A stretch of DNA of 64,000 bases from Tetrapyrgos nigripes. Taxonomy: Eukaryota; Basidiomycota; Agaricomycetes; Agaricales; Campanellaceae. Below the pieces are notes generated by a model. That model saw only the letters and a list, made by a program, of their open reading frames with translations. It did no database searches and was not told the origin of the DNA. Where the stretch lies: contig JAACJM010000144.1 in assembly GCA_013368315.1 (NCBI GenBank), forward strand, positions 62,001 to 126,000, read 5' to 3'. How positions within the stretch are numbered: the stretch's first letter is position 1; every line of letters begins with the position of its first letter. The position numbers and the translations under genes were made by a program. Below are positions 14,266 through 47,734 of this stretch, one piece after another.

Positions 14266-14352
14266 GCTATCAAAGCTGTATGTGTGTGGACTACTTGCTA
14301 CCGGAGCGGAGAGTGCTGGTTTGATTTGAGAGACAGGGCTACAATGGCCAGT

Positions 14353-14361
14353 CCTTTTATA
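14353..14361 (-). promoter_or_regulatory. TATA box of the thaumatin-like gene
   Basis: TATAAAAGG on the minus strand, about 90 bp upstream of the predicted ATG at 14265. Good match to a core promoter in both sequence and spacing. Confidence 0.65.
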
Positions 14362-14709
14362 CTCGAAGACCAATACCAAACGTATCCTCCTGAAGGTCTG
14401 TGCACCTAATACCCATGGCAGTATATGTATAGGTTCTGGTCTTTCTGTGCGCTGAACGAAGGATCTGTTTTTCCAACATGCTGCCGCACTTGCTGCAGTC
14501 ATTGGAAACGCCACTTACATCCCAGTGGTGATCACCGCCCCATACGATCTGCGTATGTACACAGGTCCATGATGATCTGCTTTACTCTAGTGATTAAGCT
14601 GTCCTGTATACAATAGTCTGATCAAAGACCCATACAGCCAAACCATCTTTGTTAACCGCAGTTCCAGAACCCTACAACAACAACAACAGTGATTATTAAT
14701 TATAACATC

Positions 14710-26090: not shown

Positions 26091-26135
26091 CTACAGTGAC
26101 CGACAAAACTGATGTCACTCCTAATTGAATTGAGG
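26091..26135 (+). repeat. Transposon terminal repeat 5' of integrase gene copy A
   Basis: CTACAGTGACCGACAAAACT followed by GATGTCACTCCTAATTGAAT. It matches both arms of the 86-bp element at 24664-24749. It lies 210 bp upstream of integrase-type gene copy A and points toward it, so it is a plausible left end of that transposon. The right end was not found beyond 47740. Confidence 0.5.
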
Positions 26136-26300
26136 GCCAAACAAGGCAATAAATACTCATTCAAAATATTCGTGATTTACTTTTTCCCAGAAACTGTCCA
26201 AATATGGACTAACCCCTGTCGTGTCTCTGTCCATTCCTCCTCTCTTGCTAGCAGGCAATGGATTTAGGTCTGAAGAACATGGCTAACACATGTTCTTCTC

Positions 26301-28316
26301 ATGCCACTACCACCACTACCAATACCTCGTAACTGCTCAAGTCAACCTGCCAACGTTGCCCAGGCTGACTGGACTCTATGTGATGTATACCGATCAGCAA
26401 TTAGTGTGCTTTCACTTCCAAGCATTGATCCATGGCGTACCGAGTATCATCTGCAGACCATTGCCCATGATGCTGTACCTTTACTCATTGCACTTGAGGA
26501 TTCTTCTGAGGATGTACAGCTGCAGAAGTGGGTATATGACTGTGCAGAGGAATTTGGAGCAACATGTATCAGACTGGCAGAGGCTGGCACTCGACAGTGT
26601 GTTTTCTTGCTATTAGAAAGTAGTACAGTACGCTAAATTACACTTTTTTTGTTTACTGTCAGGGATGAAGAAAATCCAAACATACATTTTATCAACCCTG
26701 TCACAGTTGTTCATACTGGAAAACAAGGCCAGCCTCGCAAGGTCATTGATCCATCCTATCTGCGTAAAGCCATGAACCCCAAACATCGTATCCAGATCAT
26801 GGAGCTTGCAAATGCCTTGGGTGTCTCTCAGAAAATGCTTACCTCATGTCTCAAACAACATAACATTGACTACAAGTCCTCCGAAATCTCTAATCAGCAA
26901 CTGGACAATGTTGTCAAAACTTTCCAACAGAAAAAGCCACGTTCAGGAGAGCAATATCTCACTGGATACTTGAGGCGAAGTGGTCTAAAGGTTCAGAGGC
27001 AAAGGATAAGCGAGTCCTTGCAGCGTGTTGATCGATTGGGACATGCACTTCGCTTACAGCAAAAGCGGAAGATTGAGAGTGTTCCGTACCTTTTTGGCAC
27101 GTTGACAGTCATCACAAACTGATTCTCTGGGGCATCGTGATTCATGGCTGTGTTGATGGATTCTCCTGAAAGGTGAGCCCGGAATGATGTGATTTTCAGG
27201 TGGCTTGGATTTGATGCTGTGCTTTTAATTTAAAGGTCACTGGGCTTTGAGCAAGTACAGATAATAGAGCGTCAACTGTGCTCAGTATGTTTTCCCATGC
27301 TGTCAAAAGGTATGGATGGCCATCACGTGTGAGAGGAGATCGAGGAGGTGAGAATCGTGATGTATCAGTGGTGATGATTCTTCATCGTGGTCTTAGAAGG
27401 GGAAGTTTCATTTGGGGGTGATCAACTCATAACACTCATATTGAAAGGCTTTGGGTTGAAGTTGGGACTCAATTTGTTTGGGCATGGAGAGCATTCTTTT
27501 TCTGTTTAGAACGAAGGCATTATCTGGATAGAACGAATCCCCATCATCTTTGGATTCTACAGTTCTTATTTCTTGATGCTATAAATGATGACTGCAGGGA
27601 GTTCCAAAAGGACTGGAATGCACATCCTATTTCAGGTCTTGGTCGTGGTGAATGTTATTATTGTCCTTCAAATTTCATTACAAATTTCAGAGAAATTCTG
27701 GATACTTGGCTATGACAGGATCTCTTCTTTCTTGGCCAGTTGAAAACATGGCCTCTACAAAGATGATTGTGAAGGCTGCTCTCCTGAAACAATTGCTAGA
27801 TCTTATGGTGTGTACAGTACTCCAATACACTGCCGTCCACATCAAACAGGAGCCGGACATTCATCAGATGAGTCTGAGTCAGAGAGTGATCCTGAAGGTA
27901 AATATTTCACTACAGATATTAATTTGAGGTGCATCTATCCAGAGTGGTATGGAATAGACGTTGAAATCACCAGTGAAACAAATTCAGGTAAGTAGACAGT
28001 TTTGTATGTGGTCCTTCTGTACAACATTGAAATTTATTTTAGCTGATTCCTGGCATGGGATCAAAAGCAATGAGGGCGAAGCAGATGGTGAGGTATGGAA
28101 TGGTGTAGAAGCACAGTGCAAATCTGGTCAGTCTCAATATTTTATTATATATCTTATCTTACAAAGTATGCGATTCTGACGCAGAAGATTCATCATATCA
28201 GGCAGTTGACGCTCCTGATCACTCAAAACATTTTGGAAGCAAAAAAATGAGGGTTTTTACAGATGCATTGACCTGGATGAGGGAAGAGGGTTGCATACCT
28301 TCAGGATATGGTCTCG
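26301..28316 (+). pseudogene. Integrase-core (DDE) transposase, copy A
   Basis: Multi-exon gene of a type common in mushroom genomes. 26301-26620 is the N-terminal helical part. 26649-27095 holds a helix-turn-helix (MELANALGVSQKMLTSCLKQ) and the RSGLKVQRQRISESLQRVDR block. The DDE core follows: WHVDSHH with the first Asp near 27104, GDRGGEN near 27338, and IERLWVEVGTQF with the Glu near 27443. Then come LWILQFLFLD, WNAHPIS, an acidic SDESESESDPEG linker (27850-27900) and a C-terminal domain up to IPSGYGL at about 28316. There the homology jumps to another copy, so the last ~80 residues are missing. TGA codons at 27167, 27248 and 27419 each stand where Arg is expected, and there is a 1-bp frameshift near 27090. 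Decayed, but the catalytic residues remain readable. Confidence 0.8.
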
Positions 28317-28354
28317 ATCCTATGGTGTCTATAGTACTCCAATACACCATTGTT
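28317..28354 (+). pseudogene. Integrase-type gene copy D, left stub
   Basis: About 38 bp homologous to 27797-27833 of copy A (the SYGVYSTPIH segment), directly abutting the truncated 3' end of copy A. It ends with ATTGTT (28349-28354), the left target-site copy of the 18.7-kb insertion. The gene resumes at 47094. Confidence 0.7.
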
Positions 28355-28522
28355 TATGCTGTCCCAAGTGCACTTTTATTCGTGCACCCGTATTGACACA
28401 AAGTCGACACCCGTATTCATTAAAAAGTTGACACCCGTATTCACTCAAAAGGTCAACACCCGTATTCATTGAAAATTGACACCCGTATTTATTCAAAAGT
28501 TGACACCCGGATTTTGATTTCA
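28355..28522. repeat. Left terminal and sub-terminal repeats of the large element
   Basis: Terminal repeat 28355-28380, then about six copies of CACCCGTATTC or variants, spaced about 22-26 bp with TTGAC/TCAACA linkers. Confidence 0.85.
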
Positions 28523-28950
28523 TTTAACCTGCTGACATGTTCTTCTGATGTGATCTTGGCTAATGATCAGTCACAAGAGTTACTTGTCACATGCATCTCA
28601 TTCCGCTGTCCCCAGACGTTTTGGCTTCTGGAAAGGGTGTTACTGTAAGTAAACTCGTTTGCTTTTAAGTCTAAACTCAAGCCTAATATGTGGAGATTGT
28701 GTAGAAAATAATTCCTTGAATAGACATCATAATAAACTTGATACCTAGTGCTCCCAGCTCCCTGGTAGCATCCACTAATAATACCAGAGCTTATGATTAA
28801 CACACCATATGTAGCGTCACGTATGTTATTAGACAAAGAAACATATGAACACAAAAAGGAGCAGAGTATTAATTAGTAGTGGTATGTATGTATAAAGGAG
28901 TGTGAAGAACTGGTGTGGCTGGGAAGTGTTGGATGGAAGGAAATGGAAAT
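28523..28950. other. Non-coding stretch inside the large element
   Basis: AT-rich sequence between the sub-terminal repeats and the end of the BTB gene. No feature recognised. Confidence 0.5.
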
Positions 28951-29786
28951 TTAGGTAAGAGTCGTAGTGGTAGCTAGTGTTTGATTAGGAGAAAACTCCT
29001 CTGGACACATATGAAGTGAACGAATAAAATCAATGATGGATACTGTAGCAGATGTGACAATCTGATCCTCAACATTCAATGCCCCCCCGTCCCACCAGGC
29101 CTGGAGATATGCAGCCTTGCAGGAAGGCCTAAGCTCGGTAGACGGTGTTTGCTCCACTAGATGGGTGATTTCATCAAGGGGAATGGGGTCATTGGGATCG
29201 ATCAATCTCCTGCCTATCACACTCCACCATAACTCGGTCCAATAAGGCACACAAAGACGTTCATGCCTACCAGCAGAACAGTCAGGACTGGGAGCTACTG
29301 TGGGAATAGACTGAGCAATTCTAGCATGCTCATGGAGTATCCTGGCATGTGCAGCACCAATAATCCCAATTATTCTGCCTCCTAACCTGGACATATCCTC
29401 ACCACAAATCTGCTCTGGGCCAGCGTGAATCAAAGCATGTAAGGCTGGAATGAGCCAATCTTCATCAAGAACTGGCAAGGTAATGCTGAGAGCGACTTTG
29501 TCAAGGGGAGAGACTAGTGGATCTGCTTCTTTGAGACAGTCGATAGCCCATCGTGAGCAATCAGGCATTATGAACCAGCAGGATGCATGCAGAAGTTTGA
29601 TGAGCATGTCAACAGTAAAGTGGGAGCAGAGTTCAGTGTGATACATAACAATAGAAAAAGCGAAGATAAGTAGAGGAAACACTCACAAGTGCCAAACCCA
29701 CTCTAGAATGAGAGCAAATTGTACTGCAGTGACACCGTCCAGAAAGATAGGCTCCAGCATAGAAAAATCTGATGGTATGTATACTA

Positions 29787-32700
29787 CTGTCCCATTTCAT
29801 TCAATTCACGAGTAACGCATCAAGGACCCTCGAAAATTCGCGAAAAAAAATCCGGGTTCGCTGTCACGGAGGCCTTCACACGAAGTTAGAATCAAAGATG
29901 TCACAGTTCGATTTTTTAAATCTAAAGGCCTCCAAAAGGCTCGCAAATTCGCCGCAGATACAATTATAACGTGTATGTGAGTTAACTGAGGCGTAAGTAA
30001 AGTAACAACACGTTACGGAGCACTGAGTGCCTGTCAGTGTCACCCCAAAATAGAAACTTGATTTGTCAGACGTGGGACGTGGCAGTCGTCACCAACATCG
30101 GACGACAATGAGACACGAGCACAGAACATATCCTCAATGCTTGAAGAACTCCTTTGCGCTGTAGAGAGTATTCGGCTTTCGGGTCCTTTTACCCAGAACG
30201 GCTCCATCAACCACTTCCTCCTCTTGACTGGCAGAAACTTCAACGTCCTCCAAGGTTTCTGCATTTGCTCTCGAGATCAAACCACCGTACTTGTTAGTCG
30301 AACCGTGAGTGCGAGACAGTGCCAGAGGTAATCTGGATGATGACTTCACCAAGAGGTACGTCAATCTCATCCTCGCCCTCTGCTTCATCCTCCAGCTCTG
30401 TGTCGTCTTCAGACAGCTGATCAGTCTCGTTAGGGACTGCAGCTTCATATTTGACTAGGCTGGCATACAATTTGGGCTCGGAATTCTGGATCTCGCGTAG
30501 TTTTGCTCGGGCTTCATAGCTGGAGAGGGATTCCCAGGAGTAGTTCCATTCGCGAGGTTCAGCTGGATCAGCGGGTTTGGTTTCACGGAATTTACAGTTT
30601 GCAAATGCCTAGCAACTGGTGAGTCCGAAATATTGATACAGACATTTAAGATTACTTACCTTTTGAACCAATTCCTTTCGGTTGACAGAGTCATACGCAA
30701 CCTTTAACCAGCGCACGCTTCAGTTTCTATGAATGGCTATCCGGTTGTCAAAGGTAATGTTCTTCTCATTCTTCTGCAACTGCTCCAGCACCTCGTTGAC
30801 AATGTCTTCTTGATAGGACTTCTTGACGGAAAGTTTGAATGGCCATTGCATACCGACATTGCATGGCTGCCCAACAGGAGTGCAACCACCCGGTACGTAG
30901 TCAAGGATGATAGTGGGGTGATGAGCTGATATCCACTCCTGGAAAGCCTTTGAGCGCTGTACCGACCACACGTCTAACATCCAGATCGTCTTTTGAGACT
31001 CAGGTCGTCCGGATGCAGCTTTGACTTTAGAGAAATATGGTGCGAGAATGTTGTCTACATATGACTGCATCATCTGATGATTTGACCAATATGTAGATGT
31101 GCCAGAGGGTTCGAAACAGAAACCAGCTGCAATAGCTTCTTCATACGAGGGAGATGTTGGAGAAGGACAAGAGAGGGAGGTTTTTCCACTGTAGATGGCT
31201 TGAAATGGGAGGAGGGTGCCGTCCAGGGAGACAGACACCATGACGGTGAAAGCTTGCTTCTCTTCAGCTCCTAGAAGCTCAACCTGTTTGGCGCCAGTCT
31301 CTGCCCATGTTGATTTGTTGCCAGGTGCATATATGACATTGGTTTGATCCGAGTTTACGACGAATTGAGGCAGTATATCCTCCTCCTTGATAGCAAAAAC
31401 TTTTCGCAAGAAACTCTGTTTGAGCTGCTCCTCCCAGTTATCCGGCAGTTTGTGGGCAGCCCATGTACCTTTCCGAGGTGACCACTTCAACGCATCATGC
31501 ATAAATGCATGCACAAAGGACTCCGAAGCCTGAAATGTTGACCCATCCTTGAAGGTGTGAGTGAGGATTCCTGGAGCCATTTCCATAATTGTGCCTAACA
31601 TGATTCCACAGGAGCTTTGGCATCTCGAATGGCCTGGAGTCTTGAGGTGATTGCTTTAACCACACCGGGATGGTGTGACTAGAATTGTAAGTCAATTTGT
31701 ACCATCAAAAATATGATGCAGCTCACCAAAACACCTTGTCTACCTCCTTTAGAATGCCTGTTGTCATGTCGCTTCTGCACTCAAGCCAGGACGGCATCAC
31801 TCCATCGTGGAGATGGTCCAGACCGGTCAATCCATCCACGCACAGTGCTCTCACTGAGGCTGTCGAAGAGCTTGTCATGACGTGCTCTAAGCAGTTTGAC
31901 AATCCCGGTGGCACTAAAACTGACAATCCCGGCAGCATCATCGATGTGGTTGAAAAGGAACGGTGCTTGCCAGTTTGTGTACTTGGCATTTCGTAGTGTT
32001 TTCTTCTTTTTGTGTCCATGAGGTTTGCGATGCTCCTCCTGAAACTTGGATTTGAGCTGACATTTGGGACACGATAGCTCTGCAACATCAAGCTTTGCTT
32101 TTTTGTTCGAGTTGTCATTGAGTTGTATAATCTTTTCAAGTAGGTTAGATTCTGCCTCACTCCATAAAATGAATACTCACCTTTTGTTTCCTACCCCCAG
32201 GGCTTCGGATACCGCTTGCAATTTCCATCTCCTTTTGCTTTTGTTGCTTTCGCTGCTGTCTCTCCCTAGCTTGTAAGCGTCCCTTCTCAGTCGTTGCTTT
32301 CATTCTCTTTATCGTCTTCTTTCCCGTACTGAAGCGTTGGTTGTCCTGCTCTAGCTTAACAGCCTCATTATTCTTTGCAATGTGCTGATGTTGTTCCTCC
32401 AATGTGCATGGCTGGAAGAACTTGAGAATACCAGAAGCATTATGTTTGGTTGGAGACAGCCTTTCCAGTGCACGGCGTGTTGTTGATAGCAGGGTGCGTT
32501 TTTTGGGTTTGGAAGATGACAGGTTGGATACAGAAGAGGTGGATGGATCAGGAATAGACTGTGTCTGTGCGGGTACTGGGGTAATTTCCAGGCGATGGCG
32601 CTTGCAACAGTTATCGGAGTCAGAGACTACCTGGCTTGGGTATTGAGATTGCCACTGCCGTTGCCGTTGCCCTCATCGTCGCCATCACCATCATTGCTGT

Positions 32701-34235
32701 CGCTGGTGCTGTCATTGTTGGTTTGGAAGTGGAATGAAGACTCAGAGTCACTGGAGTATGTATTGCTACTTGTATCTGCTTCAGGTTTGCACTGAAATTT
32801 GAACTTGTCAGTAAGTAATTCTTCATCTATATGGATTTTATCACTCGCCTGATCATTATGCCTTTCCATAACCTCCAGAAATGCATCAAGCCGACAGTCA
32901 TCCATCTGTCTTCCCTCCATCAAGCACTCTGGGTCTCCGAGAAGGAAGTGCTCAAGGGCACCCCATGCCAATATGCCACACAAGTAAGAGTCATTTTGTG
33001 CTGTGATTGCCATGTCCTCTACCCGGAAGCTGACACCAAAATGCTCATAGGTCCACCACTGAAGAGCTTTCTCGAGCTCATCTTCAATTGTATGGCCCAT
33101 GGAATCACCGTGGAAAATAGCCTCCTGAGTGGTGTCAATGACGACGGCCACCCAATGGTTGCCATTGACGTTGGTGAGCGTGCCCACCAATGACTTGTCT
33201 CCAACGGTCAACTTTGTTGCGATCTGGTGCAGCCACCGGAACTTGGGTGTCGAATATTTGCTTGGTCGTTGGTAAGCCTGCTTCATCTTTGGAATGAATA
33301 ACGCTGATTCGCTGGGAAGCTCAACAATGTCATGGACATTGGAGCATGCTACCTTTCTTTGCATCAGGTCAAGCAGCAAGTTAAGGTGCTCACTTGATAA
33401 CCAATCGTCGGTGAAGAAGGACACAAGGTAACGCTTCTCTATCTGGATGGGAAATCCCTCAATGTAGCCAGCCCACGACAAGTTGGTTAAGAAGTTGTAT
33501 GATGTGTCCACAGAATGCCCAGAACCTCCCGAAAGTATGGTCTCCATTTTTCTTCTTTCCTCTATTCTGCTAACTGCTGGAGTCCATGCCAGCTTCGTGG
33601 TGCGCAGCGGAATGAGCTCGGCCCAATACGTCACCACCCAAGGAGCATAGCGCTCATCAGGATCAACGTCGTCGTGGGGAACCGTGATGGATTTGATGGT
33701 ATGGTCACTTTTGAGAAGTTTCTGAAGCTCATTGACAAGAGCTGCTGGAGGACTCCTTAGTAATGTGATGTCTCGGAGGTTTTCGTTGGTTGGCGGGTCT
33801 GTCGAGATGTACTGGTGAGCGTTTTGGCTTGTTGATGTAATGTCCGGGAGTGGAAACTGGATGAAAGAGAGAATGTTTAGTGAGGGACTCAGTAGGATTG
33901 CATCCCTAGCTGCTTTGGGAATGTTGTGCGTGATGGTTAGGCAAGAACGACGACGAGGGTAAAACTTTTGGTATTTTTGCTACTACATAATGGTGATTAC
34001 ATTGGACTCCCAAATATAGTATTCCCGCTTGGGCTCATCGTGGAGTTGGAGCTGGAGAAACCGTATATGCGCTGGACTGTTCCTGAGGCCCAGCTCGCCG
34101 CGGCACAACATGATGCTGGCTGGTGTCGCGGAAACTGAGCTCTGTCACGCATCACGCTGGCATTTTCGCAAGAAGAATATTCGCGAGGCCATGTCATGGT
34201 CACGGTGGCCTCGCGAATTGAACAAAATGGGACAG
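29787..34235. mobile_element. 4.45-kb pogo/DDE_1-type transposon with TA duplication
   Basis: Ends read inward CTGTCCCATTTCATTCAATT (left) and CTGTCCCATTTTGTTCAATT (right), continuing CRCGAG: 26 bp with three transitions. Flanking TA at 29785-29786 and 34236-34237 is the Tc1/mariner/pogo target duplication. Excising the element restores one open BTB frame across the site, confirming both boundaries. It carries one minus-strand gene with Ulp1-type protease and DDE_1 transposase regions. Confidence 0.88.
30294..33852 (-). pseudogene. Ulp1-type protease plus DDE_1 transposase, fused gene
   Basis: Minus strand. 33852-32627 encodes a C48/Ulp1-like cysteine protease: NGNHWVAVVID (His), FHGDSMG (Asp), AQNDSYLCGILAW (Gln, Cys). 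After a frame change near 32640 an open linker (SDSDNCCKRHRLE, SSSKPKKRTLL, lysine/glutamine-rich coil) leads straight into the DDE_1 part: CPKCQLKSKFQ, PFLFNHIDDAAG, ESTVRAWIDRSG, an intron (GTGAGC..TCTAG near 31730-31682), then VVNSDQTNVIYAP (first Asp), IWMLDVWSVQRS (second Asp) and PGGCTPVGQPCNVG. The third catalytic Asp (usual QPCDVG) is Asn. TGA at 31781-31783 and 30720-30722 stand for Arg. After another intron an acidic tail ends at TAA 30294-30296; a second frame (KRTRKPNTLYS) may be the true C terminus. Inactive today. Confidence 0.75.
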
Positions 34236-34640
34236 TACTCCCTGTGCTGAAGATGCCTTCTCCAGAAGTTTCTCATAGTTCTTCAGATTGTGAAAGGAAG
34301 GCAGCTTCAAGAGCTCCACCAAGTCATTGACTAGTACTGAGTGCAAGCATAGTGGACTGACTGTGATCCGGAACAAGACATCTTCTGCCTGTAGTAGTGT
34401 GGATGTTGAGGGGTTAAGCAGAAAATCAAGTAAAGAATTATGAGTACTAAACATACCCTGAAGACAACCATCCTTTCCTGATCACTCCAATACCACTTCT
34501 CATGGTGCTTCCACTGTGCTGCACACCCAGCCATCAAAGAGGGAAGAGAGAAAAGAGAGAATGGGGTTAATCAGGCCAGTTTTGAGTGTCCTTTAAGGTG
34601 TTCTGATTTCTAATCTATAGAGCATGTTGTATATAACCCC

Positions 34641-36718
34641 ATGACTGTACAGGCCATTCCTTCACCTCACTTTGATATGCCTGCAGATACAATTCCCAGT
34701 TTGCCGGCTTCCACTACACATGGACTTCTATCATGGCCTCCTAATGTCCAACATGTGTATACTGCTCTATCTGACATCTACTCTGCTGCGATCCAAGCAC
34801 TCCAATCTGATTCAGAAATACATCGAATGACGTTCCATATGGAAGCCGTAGTACAAGATGCTTTCCCACTGTTGCTTGGAAGATGGCATCGACAATTATC
34901 CCACACTTTTTGGATGGCTGGAGTGGACAGCAACTATGTACACAGATTTGTTTGATGATTTTTGTGCATTTGCAGAGCATACAGGAGGAAGGTGACTGTC
35001 CTTTTAATTTAAAATCATTAACTGATCTGACTGATATGAGTCAGAGACTCAAATGTATCTCAGTTACATGCAGTTAATATTGAGAGATCAGGAAAACGAG
35101 GCTGACCATGGAAGGTACCTATCTTTGAAGTCCTCAAGGATGCATTTGCGTCTCATCGAGGCATCAACCAATCAGAGATGGCTGATGTTCTTGGCATTCA
35201 CTGCAACACTTTGTTGAGATATCTGAAGCAATACAATATTAACTCCCACAAGTTCAGTAACATCAGTGATTCTGACCTTGATGCCATAGTCTGGGACTTC
35301 CGTGTTCACCATCTGCAAGCTGGAGTTCGGTATCTCAGAAGCCACCTTCGAAATAATCACAGTTTGCGGATCCAAAGGCTATGTGTCCAAAATTCCATTG
35401 ACCAAGTTGACCCTCTTGGACAAGTACTTCAGCATTATACTGCTACTCGTCGATGCCGGCACAAGGTCTCACGACCAAATGCTTTGACAAGCTGATCAGA
35501 TGGGGAATTGTGATGACTCTCAAAGTATCATGATTCCCTATGTACTCTTACACTAATATTTTTTAGATTGTCGGACTTCGCGCTAGCACAAGTGACAGTG
35601 CCTCAACTGTTCTGGATGTATTTATAAAGGCAGTTGAGAAGTATGATTTACCTTCCAGAGTGTGTGGGGACCAGGGTGGAGAGAACAAGAAAGTCTCTGT
35701 CTACATGATCCTTAGGCATACATGTGGGGAAAGTAAGCTGTAACCTTATTCAAATTTCCACAAATTTTCAAGTCCTTCAGATCAACCAGGAACAGCTGAA
35801 TAGAGCAACTCTGGGTTGAAGTGGGGGTGCAATTTGCAAGACCATGGTGTGCGTTCTTTGTGCAGTTGGAGGAGAAGCACGGACTTGACATCCAGAAGCC
35901 GGCTCATCTTTGGCTCCTTCATTATCTATTCTTGGATAAAATTAACCAAGACTGCACACAGTTCTGTCAGCTATGGAATGCACATCCTATTTCTGGAGAA
36001 GGTCATAATAAAAGCCCTAATGTGAGTAGAACACATATCCCCTTATCTTTTCCATATTTTGAACATTTGTATAGGACATGCGATTTCTGGGCATGTATCA
36101 AGATGGTGTATATGATGACTGTGAAGGAGTCGACCCAACTGTGATTGAGAGGTTCTATGGTGCAGATGATGAGTCAGACTCAGACTCAGACACAGACTCA
36201 GACTCAGACTCGTCAAATGGCTCAGATCAAAGTGTTGAGGATAATTCAGACTCAGATGAGGAGGATTTGGAGTATAACTATGAGAGTAGTGAGGAGGATG
36301 AGGCAGATGGAGATGATGAGTATTCATCCAGACACTTAGAAGGTTTGAAATTCTGTGCTCTCTTTGAATGACACACTCAATTTTTCCATCAGAACACATA
36401 GCAGAAAGCATCCAATTGCAATTCAAGCATGCTGCAATCTCGATGCCAAAGTATCCAGATCCCTTTTCTAGCAAACAGCGTCGTAACTTCACTGCTCTGT
36501 TAGAGGCTGTTGTGGGTGAGAACATCTTACCATATGGCTATAACATACGAGATGATGAATGGGATGAACATGGTTATCCATCAGTGGATATTTTGCGGTC
36601 AGGATGTAGGGGTTCAAGGGAGCAACGAATTGCATTACCTGTAGATGATTGGCTTCCTCATGTGCGACTGTGGGCTCAGTCCCTGGTGACCATGAATGAT
36701 GTCTTGGCAGCTGACTAG
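34641..36718 (+). pseudogene. Integrase-core transposase, copy B (inside the large element)
   Basis: Paralog of copy A. Exon 1 from ATG 34641 (MTVQAIPSPHFDMPADTIPS). The helix-turn-helix region is at 35150-35260 (MADVLGIHCNTLLRYLKQYN), then RSHLRNNHSLRIQRLC and VSRPNAL. Right after PNAL, at about 35485, the WHxDxHH motif is missing by a small deletion, so the first catalytic Asp is lost. After an intron come IVGLRASTSDSASTV and GDQGGEN (second Asp). In the third motif TGA at 35797 replaces Arg and CAA at 35806 replaces another Arg (IEQLWVEVGVQF). Then LWLLHYLFLDKIN, NAHPISGEGH, an SD-repeat acidic region (36165-36330) and the full C-terminal domain (YGYNIRDDEWDEHGYP...LWAQSLVTMND) to TAG 36716-36718. 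Orientation is opposite to the BTB gene. Confidence 0.8.
36168..36215 (+). repeat. GACTCA coding repeat
   Basis: Hexamer-like GACTCA/GACACA run encoding alternating Asp-Ser in the acidic linker of integrase copy B. Copy A has a shorter equivalent. Confidence 0.8.
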
Positions 36719-37106
36719 TTCCACTTCCCTGTTTGTAGCTGTAGAGATGAACCGATGAGGCATTGAAGCAGAAGTTTTCGCAGTATCAGTACCTTCTTTG
36801 AATGTTCCAAAGGAAACCTTCCTTTGGGGCATTTCATTTGGTGGTGGTTCCTTTTGTGACTTTTCATTTGGTGGTGTTGCTTCGCCACTAGCCAAATGAC
36901 ACTTGATTTCAAAATTACACACAAGCAATGGTAGTTTGGGACTGAATAATAATGGTGTGAGGTGATGTCTCCAGAGCTAACCCACAACCCAACTTTTGTT
37001 GTTCCTTGTTTCCTTACAGTCAACATCTGTCGTTCCTTGGTTCCTTGGTCTCTTACAGTGAATTGCTGTCATCTCTGTTGTTCATTCCTGTTATACTCCT
37101 GTCTCC
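36719..37106. other. Spacer between copy B and next gene
   Basis: Contains two direct copies of a TTTTGTGAC/CTTTGGGGC + TTTCATTTGGTGGTG-type motif (36822-36880) and two of CTT(C/G)GTTCCTTG near 37000-37050. No gene seen. Confidence 0.4.
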
Positions 37107-38529
37107 ATGGGCTCTCGGAACAAAGGCAAAGGGAAGAAGCATGCTCGTTCCCCCTCAGACTCAAAGACAACTCCAGCTCCAGTTCAGGTAGAAAGTCTTT
37201 GGGCCAGGCACTGAAACGTATTCGTGCACAGCAGTCCAAGTCCAATTCTTCTTCCTCATCGAAACTATCCACTTCTTACCTCCAGGCAGCTGATAAGGAG
37301 GCCAATGTGGGTCTGAGGAGGGTAGCACACCAGAAGAAACCGAAGAGAGAAGACGAGTTGTCAGACAATAGCTCATCTGCAGTGCGTAACCAATAACCCT
37401 TCTGCTATATTTCATCTCGTTGACTACATCTATGGATAGGACATTGTTGAAGCCTACAAAGCACCATGGCTTGCTATCCTTCTGGACGGAATCCAAGAAC
37501 AAGAGGTGCGTTTAATTTTTTGTATGAAAACCTCTTTCTCGTTCAGACTCTTCTGATTGTTGGTTAATTCTAGGCTCCTCCCTTTCTGATGCTGGAAGGT
37601 TGTGATACCAGAGGAAAAATCCAGTTCTCAGACACCACCCTTGAACATCTCAGAGCATGTGGCCTTGCTGCTTATAGCTGTGAGGGATATGTGATCAACA
37701 AGGATGCAACCCCTGAGGATGTGATGAATTTGATTCTCAAGCATCTTCCCAGGCCTTACCGATGGTGTCATCTCAATACCACCATATTTTCGTGGAGGAT
37801 TCTGGCCCCAGATTTGTTCTTCCTGTCCACCTCTGTATCCGTGAAAGACAATGCCTCACCCTTGCACCTGGAGTGGAAGGCATATTTCCTACTGGTGAAT
37901 ATATCAAACGGATCTGCAAGTCCAAGTCAAAGGGCTCATGGTTGAACAATGTTTTGATCTTTGGTAAGTATTCACTCTTTTTGTTTGTGATTATGAATTC
38001 TTTATGCTTATATTCGCAAATATAATCCTTAGCATCGTACAAGACTATTCCTGGTGACTATCTTACTGCTGGAGCAAAGGAGAGGACCCTTCCCCATTTC
38101 CGCCTTCCCAGCCCCTCTTTTCATCATACTCTTCGAACCATGGATCTGAAGATGAGCATGGAGAGGATGGATCAGAGGAGGGTCAGGTTTCAGAGGTAGC
38201 AGGTGTTAATGATGAGGGTGAAGAAGATGCAGAGTATGGCCGTGATCTTAAGGAGGTTCTTCGTTGGAGTCGGTTGGAGAACTCAAGGAAAACGAGATGT
38301 ATGTTGGACAATTCATATTTTCCCATATTGCTTCTGATCTGAATTTCTAGCCATGTCTCGTGCAGGTAAAAGTTCTACTGCAGTCACCACCAGCAATGAT
38401 GAAGATAATGTTCCTTCTCCTCCTCACCGCAGCCATCCATCTGCTCTTATCACAGGGCTTACACAGAAGTTCTCTTCATCTCAGTCAAATGCATTCAATG
38501 GGACTCAGACCTTTGCATTTGACAAATAG
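37107..38529 (+). pseudogene. Unidentified spliced gene carried by the large element
   Basis: Starts MGSRNKGKGKKHARSPSDSK (basic, nuclear-type). A 1-bp frame change leads into SLGQALKRIRAQQSKSNSSS and a Lys/Ser-rich region, an intron (GTGCGT 37383..GGATAG), IVEAYKAPWLAILLDGIQEQ, another intron, and then FLMLEGCDTRGKIQFSDTTL and VINKDATPEDVMNLILKHLP. A second frame change near 37785 is followed by HIFVEDSGPRFVLPVHLCIR, GIFPTGEYIKRICKSKSKGS, an intron, and an acidic, Ser-rich tail ending FNGTQTFAFDK at TAG 38527-38529. I do not recognise the family. The consistent protein-like sequence across several introns shows it was a real gene; the frame changes suggest decay or missed short introns. Confidence 0.55.
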
Positions 38530-38744
38530 CACAGTTTCTTGATCTCTTGTTTCAATACACTATTGCACTGTTTCTTGTGTATATATTCTGGTGCAGGCAT
38601 GTATATATCTACTACATACCTCTTCTACAGTCCAGTTTAGATACCAGATCAATGGAATTGATCATTTGTTGACTGGAACACTTGTTTGATATCAGCAAAG
38701 ATGAATGAGGCAGGCACTTCTTATATTGCTGTATCGTAAGGTAA

Positions 38745-39342
38745 GTAATTTTACTTCTTTCTTAGAGATGCTGTACACATTTTGGATAGCTTTCTACACA
38801 TCTTGAACAATGAGAATGCTGTTTCCAGAATGCTGGTATGGTCTGCATAGTAATTTTACATTGTTCTTAGAGATACTGTGGACATTTTGGATACCTTTCT
38901 ATACAACTTGAACAATGGGAATACTGTTTCCAGAATGCTGATATTGTCTGCTCAGCAATTTTACATCTTTCTTAGAGATACTGTACACATTTTGGATACC
39001 TTTCTACACATGTTGAACAATGAGAATACTGTTTCCAGAATGCTGATATTGCCTGCATAGTGATTTTACATCTTTCTCAGAGATACTGTCCACATTTTGA
39101 ATATCTTTCTACACATCTTGAACAATGGGAATGCTGTTTCCAGAATGCTGATATTGCTTGTTGAGCAATTTTACATCTTTCTTAGAGATACTGTACATAT
39201 TTTGGGTACCTTTCTTCGCATCTTGAACAATGGGAATGCTGTTTCCAGAATGCTGATATTGTCTGCATAGTAATTTTATATTGTTCTCAGAGATACTGTG
39301 AAAATTTTGGATACCTTTCTACAAATCTTGAACAATGAGAAT
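38745..39342. repeat. 105-bp tandem satellite, left part
   Basis: Six units with an exact 105-bp period: the landmark CTTAGAGAT/CTCAGAGAT occurs at 38761, 38866, 38971, 39076, 39181 and 39286. Each unit includes TTTTGGATACCTTTCTACA and GTTTCCAGAATGCTG. The array is cut inside a unit at 39342 by the copia element and resumes at 44327. Confidence 0.95.
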
Positions 39343-39578
39343 TGTTAAACTTAGGTTATCTTAGTGAGTAATCTTAGTGAGAGTCACAAAGTGGGGGGGT
39401 AAGAGCGTGCGAATGTATCTCGCTTGACTCTCAAGTATATATCATTAATCAAAGTAGTATAATAATATAAATAGTCTGAGTATATCCCTGTGATCGTTTG
39501 ACTGTAAGTCCGCAGTACCTGAGTGATGCTGTATGCATTGTAACTTAGTAACATGATCGTAATTGCTTAATTCCAACA
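39343..39578 (-). repeat. Copia 3' LTR
   Basis: 236 bp, TG..CA ends. On the coding strand the polypurine stretch AAGGGGAG (39579-39586) immediately precedes it, as expected for plus-strand priming. Confidence 0.92.
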
Positions 39579-39585
39579 CTCCCCT

Positions 39586-42500
39586 TCAAGCGGATATCCC
39601 AAGTATTCGGGAGAAACACTTGATCTTATCAGCGGAGAGAGCCTTCGTAAGTATATCTGCAAGTTGATCATTAGTTGACACATGTTTAACTCGTATGTAT
39701 CGTTGATGTATTCGATCAGTAAGGAAGTTTTTACGGATATTGAAATGCTTAGTTCTCTGAGTATGTTGTTCTTCAGGAGCACGTATAATTGCCAAAGTAG
39801 ATGCACTATCTGAGTTGATAAGTACTGGCTCCTGTTCGGCATTTAGAATTTCTTCTATAAAGCCTTTCAAATAAATAGCTTCTTGTGAGGCATGTGCGAG
39901 TGCGCATAGTTCAGCCTCAGTAACTGATAAAGTTACCAGTGTGCCTCGCTTACTTGACCAAGAAATAAGTGATTCAGCAAATTTGAATGCATAGCCCATG
40001 ATTGGTTTATTGCCATACGTAGACATACCATCAGAGTCGGCAAATCCATAAGTAGAAGTAATAGTAGGGCTCCCTAGGTTGAGCCAGTAATCGCAAGTTC
40101 CTTTTAGATAAAGATAGCATTGTTTAGCTGCAGCGTAATGCTCTTCACCTGGATCGTTAAGATATCTTGCTAGTTGACCAGTGCAGTATGCAATGTCTGG
40201 CCTAGTACAGTCAGCGACATGTTGTAAACCACCAACTAGTGACATAAAAAATTTGATAGCAGCGGTGTCCCGTTGCAGTTCACTCCCAGGTCTAGGGCTA
40301 AGATTTTGCCCGGGTAGCATAGGTGTATGGCGTGCATGTAATTGGTCAAAATTGTATCGTTTGAGAATGTTCTCAATGTAATGTTTCTGACGGAGTTTAA
40401 TAGTACAGTTATTTCTATCTCGTTGAATTTCCATACTGAGAATCCAGTGGATTTCTCCACCGTCAGTGACTTGGACGTGTCCACTAAGTGCAGTAACGAA
40501 AGCTTGTGCAGTAGCTTTGTTGATAGTACACAAAGTAATGTCATCGACGTGACAAGATAGTATTAAAATCAGTTTATTCTCATGATATCGGTAGAATACC
40601 GCATTATCGTAAGTAGACTTCTTAAGTCCTAGTAACTTTATGAGAATATCGCATAATTTTTCGTACCATCAACGACCAGCTTGCTTAAGCCCATATAGAG
40701 TCTTTCTGAGTTTAAGTACATGACCTTCAGGCAAGTTAGGTAGTAAATTACCCGGAGGTGGACGAAGGTATAACGTTTCCGTAAAGATAGGCAGATTTAA
40801 TATCAATCTGAGTAGTTTCATAGTCTAATGAAGCTGCAAGAGCAAGCATAAAACGTGTACTGCTCATGCGTGCTACAGGGGCAAAGATATCATTTGCGTA
40901 GTAATCAATGCCTTCTTGTTGACTAAAGCCTTGTGCTACTAGTCTAGATTTCAAGTTCGTATTTAGTTTTGTAGACAAATCTGGAACCAATGATATTTGC
41001 ATCAGCAGGAGGTTTGATGTACTCCCAGGTTCCTAGACTTTCTAGAGATTCTATCTCAGCTTTCATGGAATCAAACCATGCATCACATTGTGGATGATTG
41101 AGTACATCCTTGAATGAAATTGGATCGCCGACGTTATCAGCATAGTAAACATTGAATTCTGTTAAGAAGAAAGCAATGTTTTGTTCAACTTCATTGTAGA
41201 GTAAACCTCTGGCTTCTCGGATCCTTGTTGATCGTCTTGGGCCATCAGGTTGTATAGTTTTGTCTTCGTCGACATCCATTGGTTCAGGCTCGTGTTCCTG
41301 AGGAATTGGAGTTTTATTTGTATTTTCTTCTGTAGTTTCTAATGGTTCTTGATTTTTGTTTTGTAACTCCCCTTCAACTTGCGATTTCGACGTTAAGAAT
41401 TGCAAGTTGTGTTCTACATTCACTTTAGTACCAAAGTATACATAATGGCCTTTTGAATGATCGTCAAAGCCTAACCAAACTCCACGTTTTCCTTTAGGAG
41501 TTAGTTTACTAGTTCTTGCTTCGTCATATACGATGCAAGGTGTACCAAAGCTATGTAGATTGTCTAAGTTTGCGTTGACACTGTAATGTTTAAAATAGGG
41601 AGTTTGCATTTTTAACGCAATTTTCGGAGATCTATTAAGTATGTACATAGTATAAAGTCCTGCGTGCCACCATAAACGATTAGGTAGTCTTCCAGTATGC
41701 AGATTAACACGAATACCATTCATAACATGCTGATGTACGTTTTCAGCAACTCCATTTTGCTGAGGCGTGTCATGAACTGTATAACGTGGAATTGTACCTT
41801 GTGCTTTCAGGTAGTTTCTGAATGCACCCGAAGTAAATACAGCATTGTTGTCTGATTGTAGTATTTTAACTTTGATACCATATTATGTAAATAGCTCAGT
41901 AGTAAATGTAACCCATTGCGTATAGGCTTCGTCTTTTGTTTTGAGTGGAGATAATATTAACCAATGTGTACAGTCGTCAACGATGGTTAACCAGTATTTG
42001 TAGCCTTCAATAGAGGCAGTTCATAATGGACCAAATATATCAATGTGAAAATGGTCTCCGAAGTTTTCTGCTAATTCCGAAGTACGTTGTTTCGGAACAG
42101 AAAGTCTATGTATATTATTGATGATGCAGTTTTCACATTGAGTTTCTGTCCAATCATCAATAATGATCGTAATAATAGATTTATCTGTTTTTAGTAATGT
42201 TTTTAGATTTGTATAACTCATATGACCAATTTGTTTGTGAAGTTCGTATAAACTTAAACTAGCAACGTTATCACTCAATTTTTTAGTTGTGATAGAGTAA
42301 AGTTTGGCGTTCTCGTGTATAGCGCCAACGAAATTGTCCTTGTCATTGTGTATTGTACATAAATGATCATGAAAAGTAAAAGTATAGTCCACTTTTTGTG
42401 AAATACTGATTAAAGTAAACGGAAGCTTTGAGTTGTAGTATACATTTTTAAGAGTGATCGATGAAGACTCACTATTGTCCTTCCTAACTTCTACCTGCAT

Positions 42501-43992
42501 ATCGCCTGCTAATCGAAGTTCTAGATGCTCTGAATTGGCAACAGTTAAAGTTATAGCAGGCGTAGTATGAACATTGAAAAGTAAGTTAAGATACGGTGTA
42601 CAGTGTATAGTAGCACCAGAATCAATTATATGCATATGATCTTGGTCAGAGATCGTGGTAAAAGCAGGTAGGGAAATATGATGACTCACTGGAGTCTCAG
42701 AGTCTTCCATCTCGACGTCGCCTGAAGAAATTGACTGTACCCAGTCCAATTGCAAAGTTGACGTAGTCGTGACTTGAGAAGAAGAAGAAGACGCAGGCAT
42801 GGAGACGGCAACTGATGCATTCTCCTTGACCTTGCCTTTGTTGGATTGTTTTGTAATCCCTTTCTTCTTCATAGCCTCTTTGGACTTTTCAGTCCACGGT
42901 TCTGGGCATGTCTGGGTCGTATGACCCATCTTGTTGCAATTGAAGCATTTCTGATCTTTCTTGCAATCAGAAGGCTTCTGGTACGGCGCTGCAGCGTTAG
43001 CGCATTCCCCTTTTGACTTGTCTGATCGTTGAGCACCGCCTTGACTAGTGCTGCCAGACTTCTGGTCGGACTTCTTACCCGACGATGAAGGATACATTCA
43101 AGCATTGCTCAAACGATAGTTGGTGAATTCCTTCTTTAGTTGCGCAATGAGGTCGACAGCTGTGTATACAGGTTTCTCCCCTTCTGGTGCAGTAGTGGCA
43201 TCTCATGTAGTGGCAGCCGCATCCACAGTTGCTTCGTAAGAACTGTGAACAAAGTGATAGTGCGGGGGAATAATCCCCACCAGGGCTGAGTAAAAGACTT
43301 GATCTGTCTATGTCTCTCTTCTTGATAGAAGCCCACAGATCCTGAGCTTCGTCGAGGAGCTTATCAAACTCCCAGACTGGTTTACATAAGTTGAAGAGTT
43401 TCCACAGCTCGTTAGACTCTTGAACTGTGGATGAAGGATCGAAACGTTGCTTGAGCTTCTTGATAAGCTCGATGTAGTGGATCATAATTTTATCATCTAT
43501 CTTGCCTGTAATAGCATTAAAACAGGCTAGTTTGACAGTGTTACCAGGATGTAGCCCAGAGCTTTTGAAGTGTTGGTGACGAATCACCCGTAAAGCGTTA
43601 TTAGCGCGAAAGTACCACATCTTCCAATTCTCACTGCCAGTAAGAACTGACAAGGAATCAAAAGCTTTGTTGATGTCGCTGAGTGGCATCCCGTAATTGG
43701 GGTTTGTATTTTCGGGCATAGATAATGCAACCGACGAAGTAGGGGAAGATGGAGGAGATGATGATGGAGGAGGGACATTATCCTGGACATTGGCACTAGT
43801 ATTTTTGCCAGCATCAGACATAATGAGAGTGAGTGCGAATGGAAGGGGGTTTTGGATGGGAGGATCAAGTGGTTGTGCCTGAGAAGTAGATGATACAGGC
43901 GGAGTAGGAGTTTGGGTACTAGAGTGACGACTGGTAGTAGGAAGTGGAATATCTGGGGCTGGTCCTTGAGATCGAGTTTGTCGACTAGTCAT
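39586..43992 (-). pseudogene. Copia gag-pol polyprotein, decayed
   Basis: Minus strand from ATG 43992. Gag: SENWKMWYFRANNALRVI, then a frameshift near 43270. Zinc knuckle CFNCNKMGHTTQTC (about 42950). Protease IDSGATIHC (about 42620). Integrase zinc region HKQIGHMSYTNL..CENC, HIDIFGPL and LQSDNNAVFTS. RT: LVAQGFSQQEGIDY, QIDIKSAYLYG and HVDD (His for the usual Tyr) at about 40548. RNase H: SVTEAELCALAHASQEA and DQLADILTKAL, ending TGA 39586-39588. Stops replacing Arg (TGA) are at 43203, 43098 and 42021; another stop (TAA) is near 41884 in integrase, and there are frame changes near 40960 and 40690. Not functional as assembled. Confidence 0.9.
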
Positions 43993-44070
43993 ATACTAGT
44001 CCAAGAACAGAGTACGAGTAAAGAGTAAAGCAGAGTAGAGCAAGTGTTTATTGAAGTTATAGCAAGCTAG

Positions 44071-44085
44071 TTGGGGCCCATAACC
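44071..44085 (-). promoter_or_regulatory. Copia primer-binding site
   Basis: GGTTATGGGCCCCAA directly downstream of the 5' LTR on the coding strand. Position fits a tRNA primer site; GGTTATGGGCCCA-type sites are usual in fungal copia elements. Confidence 0.55.
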
Positions 44086-44321
44086 TGTTAAACTTAGGTT
44101 ATCTTAGTGAGTAATCTTAGCGAGAGTCACAAAGTGGGGGGGTAAGAGCGTGTGAACGTATCTCGCTTGACTCTCAAGTATATATCATTAATCAAAGTAG
44201 TATAATAATATAAATAGTCTAAGTATATCCGTGTGATCGTTTGACTGTCAGTCTGCAGTACCTGAGTGATGGTGTATGCATTGTAACTTAGTAACATGAT
44301 CATAATCACTTAATTCCAACA
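44086..44321 (-). repeat. Copia 5' LTR
   Basis: 236 bp, identical in length to the other LTR with 11 substitutions, mostly transitions. Confidence 0.92.
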
Positions 44322-44510
44322 AGAATGTTGTTTCCAGAATGCTGATATTGCCTGCTCAGCAATTTTACATCTTTCTTAGAGATACTGTACACATTTTGGA
44401 TATCTTTCTACACATATTGAACAATGAGAATACTGTTTCCAGAATTCTGATATTGCCTGCATAGTGAATTTATAACTTTCCTTTCTCAGAGATACTGTAT
44501 GATTTTCCTA
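44322..44510. repeat. 105-bp tandem satellite, right part
   Basis: Resumes with AGAATGTTGTTTCCAGAATG and continues for about 1.7 units (CTTAGAGAT near 44375, CTCAGAGAT near 44486) before losing similarity. Confidence 0.88.
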
Positions 44511-44670
44511 GATATCTTGGGCTATTTCAGAGAAACAGATATATATATTGCAGATAACTAGTATTATCACATGGAATGTCTGGTTCTTCGAGCTGCTCTC
44601 TCTGTTGTGATGGATGAAGATGTATTGCAGAAATCTGACCTGCATGAATGTCAGTCAGATTGAATGCAAT

Positions 44671-46724
44671 TTAAAGCCAATTTACCCACTGATCAACTTT
44701 GTCATATGTATGCTTTCTTGAAAGTGTACCAGTATAAATAGTGATGATAAAGGGTTGGGGAATGGCAGCAAATGGAGATAGGACACAGATTGAGGGAGGA
44801 GTGGAGGGAAATAACTTTTCGACTTTCTTGATTGCTTGGTTCTGGGTGGATATAATAGTACCATTTTCTTTGGATATTTCTTCAAATCTCCGCTGAAGTA
44901 CCTCTACTGTGGGGGTCTTACTGACACCACCACGTCTGCCTGTGGAAACCTTTTGATTGTGGTCAGATCTCAGTTCATCGGACAGGCCAGGCAAGATGAA
45001 GCACAATTACCTTTGGTGGCCAGCCAGGACCACACTTCAATGTGTTAGAATCATTTGGATTTAACTTGTTGCACTTCAAGTTATGGAAATTGTCTGGGCC
45101 AATAGTAGTAGAATAACCAGCTAAGCGGTGATCCTCTGCTGCTACCTGCCAAATGCCAGCTGTAATGAATATTGACCAGTATAATCACTTACCAGTGTGT
45201 TGATGGATTTTTTCCCCTGCCACTCAGCCCCTACTTGGGCACGGACAACTGTGAAGAAATCTCCACACTGCCAGACAGGTAGGATAACTGACTTGCGAGA
45301 TGGATCGGTGATGAGAATGTGCTGTGAATTATGCAGAGTATAGGGTTGGCCTATGTCATAGAAAGTCAGATTATATTGGTATATGTAGATAAATATCTGT
45401 GAAACAGAAACATACCAATAATGTGTAATGGATCTAGTAGTCCCATTGATGCAAAGAAGTTGAACATCTTGACAGGAACAGAGACAAACACTTTTCTGAA
45501 CACCAGCATACACTTACTGGTGTAGTTTCGATCTGCCCTCTCATTGAGTTCATGCAGACTGCAATAAGATCTAAAAAATCCTTTGAGAAGTGATTGTGAA
45601 GATACCAAAAAAGGGAGTCAACAAAGGATATGTAGATCTCATCTGACTGGCAGATCAATTGTGCGGGAGTACCGGGAAAGAGACCAAGTGAATGAAGGCT
45701 GTCAGAAATGAGATGACGGCCAAAAGGACTGAACGCCATGGAATTATCCATTGCAGAGGCAATGGATGGAGACCTAGTCCCATTAACTATCCCATCACAC
45801 CATAGGTCTAGCTGTTCTCTGACCAGAGAAGCTTCCTGAAACCAATCAGGCCCACATTTGAACGGAGACATGCCACATCTATATCACAGAAATGAGAGAA
45901 TTAAATGGTGTATCATTCGGAGTAAAAACATTGTAATGCACCTCTGAACCAGGTTCAAAGTCACTGGTTTGCCAAGGACGGCTCAACGAGGTAATGTGTA
46001 GCTTGACAAGGCAAGAAAAGTCGCAAACTGCCCATACCCAATTGGCAGTGACAATAGCCATATAGATATGTTGCGATGGTCACGTCCGTTTGGAAGTGGC
46101 TGTGAGTTTGGCTCAACAAACCGACTTGGGACTGCAAATACTCGCAATTTCTCTGCCTTGATCTTGTTGCTGTTGTTTCTGGAGAAACTAGAAGCAACAA
46201 TCTCTTCATAAACCTCTCGGGACATCTGTATAGGATGTGCCTCCAAGCCCCAAGAGATCGTGACACAGTGCTATCAAATGAAGAAAGATATGCCGCATAA
46301 TCATATCAAATTCAGTCAAGACAATACTCCAGAAAAAAGGATAAAAAGATGCACATAACCTGCTGCTACAGCAGTGTACTTTCCACGAGTACAAATAAGA
46401 ACAGGACCTGGTACTTTGGGGCATAGAAGTTGCTCGCAGCACCAATAGCGAGCCTCCTTGATGCACATCAAGTCATAGACATTGCAAACCAACGGTTCAA
46501 GTGGCTCTAGCGATGCATCAAATCGGCTCTGGTCCATGGTAATTGTGCAATAATCTCACTGAGCAGTACCAGAAGCAAACATAGAGGGGTGGATACATAG
46601 AAAACCTAACTAAGTGTTCAGAATGAAGTAGAAACAATATTACTGATTTACTGACCTTCCAATGGTTTTTTTGAGCGGCTGGCATGCTCCTTAACACTTT
46701 TCTTGAACGTTTCACAAAATACAA
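44671..46724 (-). pseudogene. Unidentified spliced gene carried by the large element
   Basis: Minus-strand open segments that read like one protein. 46537-46330: MDQSRFDASLEPLEPLVCNV, CVYDLMC..EARYWCCEQLLC, PGPVLICTRGKYTAVAA, then a donor. 46266-45985: SWGLEAHPIQMSREVYEEIV, VFAVPSRFVEPNSQPLPNGR, ISIWLLSLPIGYGQFATF. 45871-45510: FKCGPDWFQEASLVREQLDL, AMDNSMAFSPFGRHLISDSL, LGLFPGTPAQLICQSDEIYI. Further short pieces (SIHTLSRKHTYD-type and STGRRGGVSKTPTVEVLQRR) occur to 44671. Introns around 46330-46266 and 45960-45875 have plausible GT..AG ends. I do not recognise a family, and some joins need frame changes. It may be an element-encoded protein with structural or DNA-binding function, but nothing in the sequence shows this. 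Confidence 0.45.
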
Positions 46725-46916
46725 GAGCCTCTGGACCCTCAGGCATAGTGGCGAGAAAGGTAGTGAAGCGTGTGTGGAAGTGGTTGAAGAATAAACAATG
46801 CGCGACGCGTTTGAATCAGGTGAATCAGGTGATAAGTCACAAGACCTGTGTCGTGAGAACTGCTCAATTAGGCTTATCTCACCAGATTAGATTGATTACA
46901 TACAGTACACTTGTTT

Positions 46917-47093
46917 CAATACGGGTGTCAACTTTGAATGAATACGGGTGGTGTCAACTTTGAATGAATACGGGTGTCAACAATATGAGTGAATACGGGT
47001 GCCAATGAATGAATACGGGTGCCAAATTTGAATGAATACGGGTGCACTTTTGAGTCAATACGGGTCAAATAAAAGTGCACTCGGACCAGCATA
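46917..47093. repeat. Right sub-terminal and terminal repeats of the large element
   Basis: Seven or so copies of ATACGGGTG, most followed by YCAACTTTGAATGA or CCAAATTTGAATG linkers, then the terminal repeat (AAATAAAAGTGCACTCGGAC, CAGCATA) ending at 47093. The array is the mirror image of 28355-28522. Confidence 0.88.
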
Positions 47094-47734
47094 GTTGTTC
47101 GCATCAAACAGGAGCTGGACATTCTTCAGATGAGGAGTCTGAGTCAGAGAGTGATCCTGAAGGTAAATATTTCATGCAAACTTTCTTATGTCTTATGGAT
47201 ATTAACCTGAGGTGTATCTGTCCAGAATGGTATGGAATAGACATTGAAACAAGTTCAGGTAAGTAGACAATTTTGTATGTGGTCCTTCTATAGTAAAGTT
47301 TAATTTAGCTGATTCCTGGCATGGGATTGGAGGCGAAGCAGATGGTGTAGAGGCACAAGCACAGTTCGAGTTCAGTCAGTCATAATATATTATTCTGATA
47401 TGTCTTATCTTACAAAATATGTGATTTCGACGCAGACAATGAATCATATCAGGCAGTCGATGCTCCTGATCATTCAAAACCTTTTGATAGCGAAAAGATG
47501 AGGGTTTTTATGGATGCGTTGATCCGGATGAGAGAAGAGGGTCGCGTACCCTCAGGATATGGTCTCTTGGAAGATGAATGGGGGGAGGACGGGTATCCTG
47601 GCCTCGAGACAATCTCAACAGGACGAAGTGGGTCAAAAACATTGGATATTGTGTTACCTCATGTAATATGGCAGCCCCGGGCTGAGCTTTGGGCTCAAGC
47701 GTTGTACTTGATGAACAGGCTTCTGGAGATGTAA
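47094..47734 (+). pseudogene. Integrase-type gene copy D, right part (C-terminal)
   Basis: Begins with the second target-site copy GTTGTT and continues in frame as SHQTGAGHSSDEESES and an acidic linker. Introns then separate the segments CICPEWYGIDIE and ADSWHGIGGEADGV, and the last exon has MRVFMDALIRMREEGRVPSG, LLEDEWGEDGYPGLETIS and LWAQALYLMNRLLEM. Ends TAA 47732-47734. It supplies the C terminus that copy A lacks. Confidence 0.8.

Follow-up and report, generated by a model that had tools for sequence, protein, structure and literature searches.

Is the 18.7-kb block that interrupts a gene of the agaric Tetrapyrgos nigripes a single large transposon with an unusual, mixed cargo? The block lies in a 64,000-nucleotide stretch of DNA, referred to here as the window (contig JAACJM010000144.1, our C141, positions 62001-126000), and an original prediction made from the letters of the window described it as one 18.7-kb element with several cargo genes. 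Searching the genome (98.46 Mb, 587 contigs), we found that the real unit is an element of ~9.5 kb. The extra length of the window copy and its mixed contents are the product of two insertions nested within it, a Ty1/copia retrotransposon and a transposon with a TA target, which together contribute 9.4 kb of its length. Very probably, the block represents a single copy of an IS3EU-type transposon that belongs to a family with four genes, one of them encoding a diverged Fpg/Nei-type DNA glycosylase as a likely accessory.

The 9.5-kb unit and its copies

The exact element in the window spans 28355-47093 (18,739 bp). Its left terminal inverted repeat (TIR; 28355..28380, + strand) is TATGCTGTCCCAAGTGCACTTTTATT, which starts TATGCTG and has first bases identical in all 14 compared copies, and its right TIR (47068..47093, - strand) is AATAAAAGTGCACTCGGACCAGCATA, ending in CAGCATA. 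As the original prediction had it, the ends are inverted copies (23 of 26 positions match) that lead into tandem arrays, here with CACCCGTATTC at a period of 23-24, at 28385..28513 (+ strand) and, in inverted orientation, at 46918..47065 (- strand). The predicted 6-bp target-site duplication (TSD) is likewise borne out, with ATTGTT at 28349..28354 and GTTGTT at 47094..47099 (neither assigned a strand) identical at five of six bases. So is the unoccupied paralogous site in copy A, at 27822, with which the joined flanks of the window copy form a gap-free alignment of 29 bases with six differences, all of them transitions.

Searched against the genome, the left end yielded at least 49 matches (best 40 of 71 candidates scored). 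At nine loci both ends lie 9,514-9,569 bp apart, around one collinear 9.5-kb sequence, and any two of these nine copies are separated by 7-33 mismatches and 0-113 gap columns. The prediction had named the lack of any second locus with both ends around the same genes as what would speak against it; these are nine such loci, with the four-gene set inside a TIR transposon. None contains either of the two insertions of the window copy, which aligns to them in three collinear pieces (28355-29786, 34236-39342 and 44322-47093) and is 92.5% identical to the copy in C10 over 9,102 aligned bases. The more diverged copy in C151 has ~17.6 kb between its ends; it too is without both window insertions and has a different one of ~8 kb.

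The splice sites of all four gene models were picked by eye. All four genes are open in C10, C44 and C232, and each of the remaining six full-length copies has at least one broken model (frameshift, stop or missing splice motif). Comparing the window copy with C10 over gap-free codons, stops excluded, we obtained ratios of nonsynonymous to synonymous substitution rates (dN/dS) of 0.36 for the transposase, 0.33 for the gene that we call Gene2, 0.26 for the glycosylase and 0.17 for a BTB-like gene, values that tend upward because the window copy is partly decayed. Such low ratios indicate that the three genes besides the transposase are probably kept by selection.

The termini TATGCTG..CAGCATA are present in all 14 copies for which both ends and both flanks were read. 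The TSD is perfect in four (C434 GGGTCA, C232 ACCCGA, C10 GGTTGC and C83 CACTGC) and matches at five of six bases in two (the window copy and C343). The other eight have no TSD, which counts against the placement of the element proposed below. Six of these share flanks, and therefore look like the result of collapsed assembly or recombination: C398, C91b, C502 and C179 all have the right flank of C434, with identity over 1.35 kb in three of them, and C44 and C81 have a left flank in common over 1.45 kb. C434, C398, C91 and C502 run ~7.8 kb past the right end of the element and finish in the same 300 bases (the intervening stretch was not read), probably a collapsed repeat in the assembly. A telomeric location could in principle explain why the right flank is shared, but the pieces read contain no telomere repeat, and the common 300-base ends fit a collapsed repeat better. 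For C46 and C91a, no shared flank accounts for the missing TSD.

The copy in C83 is a 3.9-kb derivative with a perfect TSD, in which the transposase gene is gone and the glycosylase gene is open; it was either mobilised in trans or deprived of its middle part once inserted. At another place (L026, ~1064-1072), two related IS3EU ends stand back to back with 7 bp between them, as if elements had inserted side by side.

The Fpg/Nei-like gene

The gene nearest the right end (44625..46746, - strand) has eight exons and encodes 578 aa in intact copies; in the window it carries frame-breaking deletions and one stop. The 578-aa model was set by comparison with homologues, and a model of 573 aa, five residues short, lies behind the Pfam, UniRef, second-family, C21, window-mapping, dN/dS and motif comparisons. 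The protein begins MPEGPE and has an AT-hook-like GRPPK near its C-terminus. Its assignment, which was out of reach of the original prediction, comes from structure: in a predicted model of the homologue P0001, which is 46% identical to the element protein, the overall fold matches the Fpg/Nei family, with 12-16% identity in the structure alignments to MutM and NEIL1. The N-terminal Pro and Glu that follow the Met in this family are present in the C10 protein. PMC5566547 gives the catalytic residues of NEIL1 as P2 and E3. Besides this low identity to MutM and NEIL1, the element protein differs from these glycosylases in its AT-hook-like tail, in a helix discussed below and in being encoded by a transposon.

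Several observations weigh against the assignment. The P0001 model was built from a seven-sequence alignment, and its mean predicted local distance difference test (pLDDT) score is 57; block means as far as about residue 330 are mostly 64-92 apart from a single dip to 47, those from residue 356 lie below 50, and the range aligned by fold extends into this low-confidence part. At E<=1, no Fpg/Nei profile in Pfam matched the C10 protein or P0001-P0005, the only matches being bZIP_1 (0.23) and DUF7495 (0.16). NCBIfam likewise gave no Fpg/Nei model, its one hit being to a sphingomyelinase model (0.0094) and falling far short of the cut-off, and the glycosylase alignment found nothing among PDB sequences at E<=10. 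The curated sequence profiles thus miss the protein, and for this reason we call it Fpg/Nei-like. UniRef labels P0001 an RNA-dependent RNA polymerase, a label without support in this analysis.

A competing view, which carries real weight yet falls short of even chances, is that the element is of the IS3EU type but its Fpg/Nei-like protein lacks catalytic activity and, rather than being a glycosylase, serves to bind DNA, for example by holding the transposon ends. Canonical Fpg/Nei proteins have G-N in the helix-two-turn-helix (H2TH) motif; the H2TH-like helix picked by eye here reads FG[RK]HL, without the usual G-N. As for the zinc or zincless finger of the family, the model has pLDDT below 50 beyond about residue 350. 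The AT-hook-like motifs and a relative in C21 (see below), which begins MPQ rather than MPE, point the same way. Against this, the MPE start is found in C10 and in four of the seven listed homologues (P0001, P0003, P0004 and P0005, the annotated form of the last having it at residue 33), and the other three (P0002, P0006 and P0007) are without this N-terminal stretch altogether. Moreover, RGK occurs in all five homologues that cover its position (CGK in C10), and the dN/dS of 0.26 is low. It is improbable that the gene falls outside the Fpg/Nei family and owes its fold match to an accident of a model from a shallow alignment; the seven sequences, the mean pLDDT and the lack of a match in Pfam, NCBIfam and the PDB sequence search would fit such an accident, and the N-terminal residues argue for the family.

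Taking an Fpg/Nei-type glycosylase as the preferred reading, we ask what it might do for a transposon. As a likely accessory, the enzyme may excise modified bases or cut abasic sites on element DNA and so relieve silencing by CpG methylation; it could alternatively repair deaminated sites or process transposition ends. Where single members of the nine copies depart from the majority by C>T/G>A, 35 of the 47 changes lie at CpG, which makes up 566 of 4,184 C/G sites, the pattern expected if the copies were CpG-methylated and deaminating. Passages of PMC12730594 argue that transposon-encoded TET/JBP enzymes counter methylation silencing in fungi, and PMC5566547 states that NEIL1 excises 5-carboxylcytosine and assists TDG. 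TET/JBP genes gave two matches in the genome, one above the cut-off (nine candidates), so there is no obvious local partner for the glycosylase. We tentatively suggest, as an idea that is on balance unlikely, that the lineage encodes its own glycosylase to excise methylated or oxidised cytosine, or deamination products, from CpG-methylated copies, as counter-silencing or self-repair in parallel to TET/JBP. An Fpg/Nei-type enzyme on IS3EU would add base removal as a second step after TET/JBP, or offer a direct path that needs no oxidation. With near-identical open copies at hand in a single agaric genome, the activity of the enzyme, its substrate and its effect on methylation are open to direct tests.

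Elsewhere in the genome, a relic in C205 is 28% identical to the glycosylase and has a transposase fragment ~470 bp away. The relative in C21 (L050 4214-5350) is 46% identical, starts MPQ and sits between Gypsy-like frames (judged by eye), with no match to the transposases of the element families described here in the 9 kb read. The host Fpg/Nei gene was found at one locus, C191, in two exons, one of them above the cut-off.

Superfamily placement and the conserved gene set

The gene that had been predicted as integrase-type cargo is the element's own transposase. It lies at 34677..36718 (+ strand), has six exons, encodes 622 aa in intact copies and is decayed in the window, with frame-breaking deletions. 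Pfam places an rva_4 integrase core in it (3.9e-65), together with rve (2.4e-8) and a number of helix-turn-helix profiles; the 21 Pfam families listed include no zinc-binding integrase N-domain (HHCC) ahead of the core. Homologues numbered 88 among 7,983 scored candidates. Those with a species name are almost all from Agaricomycetes, the best being from Stygiomarasmius scandens (54% across the full length), and a rust protein, P0095, has the same Pfam core (E 1.4e-9).

TA..TA termini, a 6-bp TSD and an rve-type DDE transposase are described as IS3EU traits in passages of PMC10045372 and PMC12730594. By its termini, TSD and Pfam core, the element fits IS3EU. Polinton/Maverick, a Ginger relative or another superfamily with an integrase-like transposase is a distinctly poor candidate: an rve-type core with a 6-bp TSD also occurs there, whereas the polymerase, ATPase and capsid domains of Polinton/Maverick were not found by Pfam in the four genes, and TA..TA termini fit IS3EU. 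As an IS3EU element, it would depend on a DDE transposase, with its rva_4 core behind a helix-turn-helix, that most likely has its binding sites in the subterminal CACCCGTATTC repeats and would create the 6-bp duplication by attaching the TA..TA ends to a staggered target. It could move by cut-and-paste or follow a copy-out route like that of IS3.

The element shares its termini, TSD length and type of transposase with IS3EU, a Repbase superfamily, as described in passages of PMC10045372, and differs in its 9.5-kb set of four genes with BTB-like, orphan and Fpg/Nei-like members, which those passages do not include. The TET+ IS3EU elements of rust fungi, as far as passages of PMC12730594 describe them, resemble it in having a 6-bp TSD and TAY.. 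ends and in carrying an enzyme for base modification as a passenger; in the rust elements, however, a TET/JBP dioxygenase lies between the transposase and alpha-kinase genes, where the agaric element has a glycosylase-like gene. The same passages describe Kyakuja-Dileera-Zisupton (KDZ) and Plavaka as basidiomycete DNA transposons that likewise carry an epigenetic-type cargo enzyme, but with other transposases and with TSDs of 8 bp (Zisupton) and 2 or 3 bp (Plavaka). Titles and abstract openings in the literature searched, Repbase entries lying outside it, and the passages of PMC12730594 and PMC10045372 report no glycosylase or BTB gene on IS3EU, and the searches turned up no account of an enzyme of this type on transposons. 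The element is ordinary in kind; its gene set, and above all the Fpg/Nei-like gene, is what sets it apart within IS3EU.

The BTB label of the original prediction found no support in profile searches, and we keep it for a resemblance only. This BTB-like gene (28951..34534, - strand; exons 34457-34534, 34236-34388 joined to 29687-29786, and 28951-29623) is split by the nested TA-target transposon in the window and encodes 338 aa in intact copies. It matched no Pfam family at E<=1, was not recovered by a PF00651 search of the genome, and gave no match to four host BTB stretches by hmmsearch or hhalign, in a test too weak to count, its query being a single sequence. Gene2 (37107..38529, + strand) is an orphan of five exons and 399 aa in intact copies. 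No homologue was found at E<=0.001 among 4,759 candidates, and its structure model is unusable (mean pLDDT 45.5).

These genes nevertheless keep company with the transposase in diverged relatives. Leaving out short fragments and closer copies, we counted distant BTB-like relatives (21-59% identical, matches of more than 100 residues) at ten loci: C38, C23, C274, C18, C8, C144, C178, C170 and two in C324. At least nine of the ten have a transposase match no further than 1.6 kb away (the best 71 of 226 candidates were scored, and neighbours may be missed), and at the tenth, C8, a Gene2 relative is 1.7 kb off. The closer BTB-like copies in C74 (74-86%), C46 (87%) and C83 (98%) have no adjoining transposase match. 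A scan for a 6-bp TSD plus TIR, with TA required at the ends, recovered complete elements of a second family in C18 (7,940 bp, TSD GAATTG) and C23 (8,146 bp, TSD GTCCCG), with termini TATGCYG and 18 of 20 end bases matching. Both have the BTB-like gene, the transposase (57-71% identical in core stretches) and Gene2 (~25%, with the C-terminal FxFGK in common), in the same order. Neither has a glycosylase match at E<=0.01, so the glycosylase gene is optional, which counts against the explanation favoured here. That the BTB-like and orphan genes stay with the transposase suggests multi-gene systems rather than a transposase with random passengers.

At C274:27873-40431 (L052, L053), two near-identical Gene2 relatives in opposite orientation flank BTB-like and transposase matches, an arrangement that points either to an inverted duplication within a third family or to a pair of elements.

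Nested insertions and the order of events

The gene that the element interrupts encodes another IS3EU-type transposase. Its left part (26328..28315, + strand) is 71-73% identical to T. nigripes P0042/P0020 in two main stretches and 57-70% in shorter ones, and its right part (47090..47731, + strand) corresponds to P0020 residues 454-609 at 57%. Part of this gene (P0020 residues 454-554) is duplicated in tandem, and the element sits where the second copy begins.

Nested insertion 1 (29787..34235, - strand) is a transposon with TIR CTGTCCCATTT and TSD TA. It contains two open reading frames on the - strand, with DDE_1 below the Pfam cut-off (30723-31655) and an Ulp1 peptidase above it (32630-33979). 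Pieces of its left end, mostly ~60-90 bp, occur at 39 other places, with outward-facing pairs ~2 kb apart in C342 and C49. Nested insertion 2 (39343..44321, - strand) is the Ty1/copia retrotransposon, with TSD AGAAT (5 bp) and 236-bp long terminal repeats at 39343-39578 and 44086-44321 that are 95.3% identical. It adjoins a 105-bp tandem array of the element's own (38744..39342, no strand), and related sequence resumes beyond it at 44322-44499.

C134 and C328 are two halves of the window locus, with the same target duplication. Their flanks are 97.6-97.8% identical to the window and their element pieces 90-98%; C328 lacks the segment corresponding to window 44246-45235, and C134 is collinear with the window at 13500-14500 and 26094-29788. 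Most simply, we infer that they represent the other haplotype, a segmental duplication being the alternative. Copia sequence is present in them and insertion 1 is absent, C134 having an uninterrupted site with a single TA, and the order is therefore transposon into outer gene, then copia, then insertion 1 in one haplotype only. On the haplotype reading, the window copy would have entered the older IS3EU-type transposase gene before the two haplotypes split, copia would then have landed in it, and the TA-target transposon would have come later. A single 18.7-kb composite moving whole, which its ends and TSD around the entire block would in principle permit and which the copia at the same place in C134/C328 might seem to favour, is very hard to sustain, since ten other copies (the nine and C151) are without either insertion, C134/C328 is the same locus and no second one, each insertion has its own ends and TSD and C134 is without insertion 1, and the window transposase and glycosylase genes are broken.

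Outside the element, a GC-rich (~61%) tandem array of a 149-bp unit, with ~32 copies and a 95% match, occupies window 1667-6475, and a 34-bp array lies near it at 985-1293.

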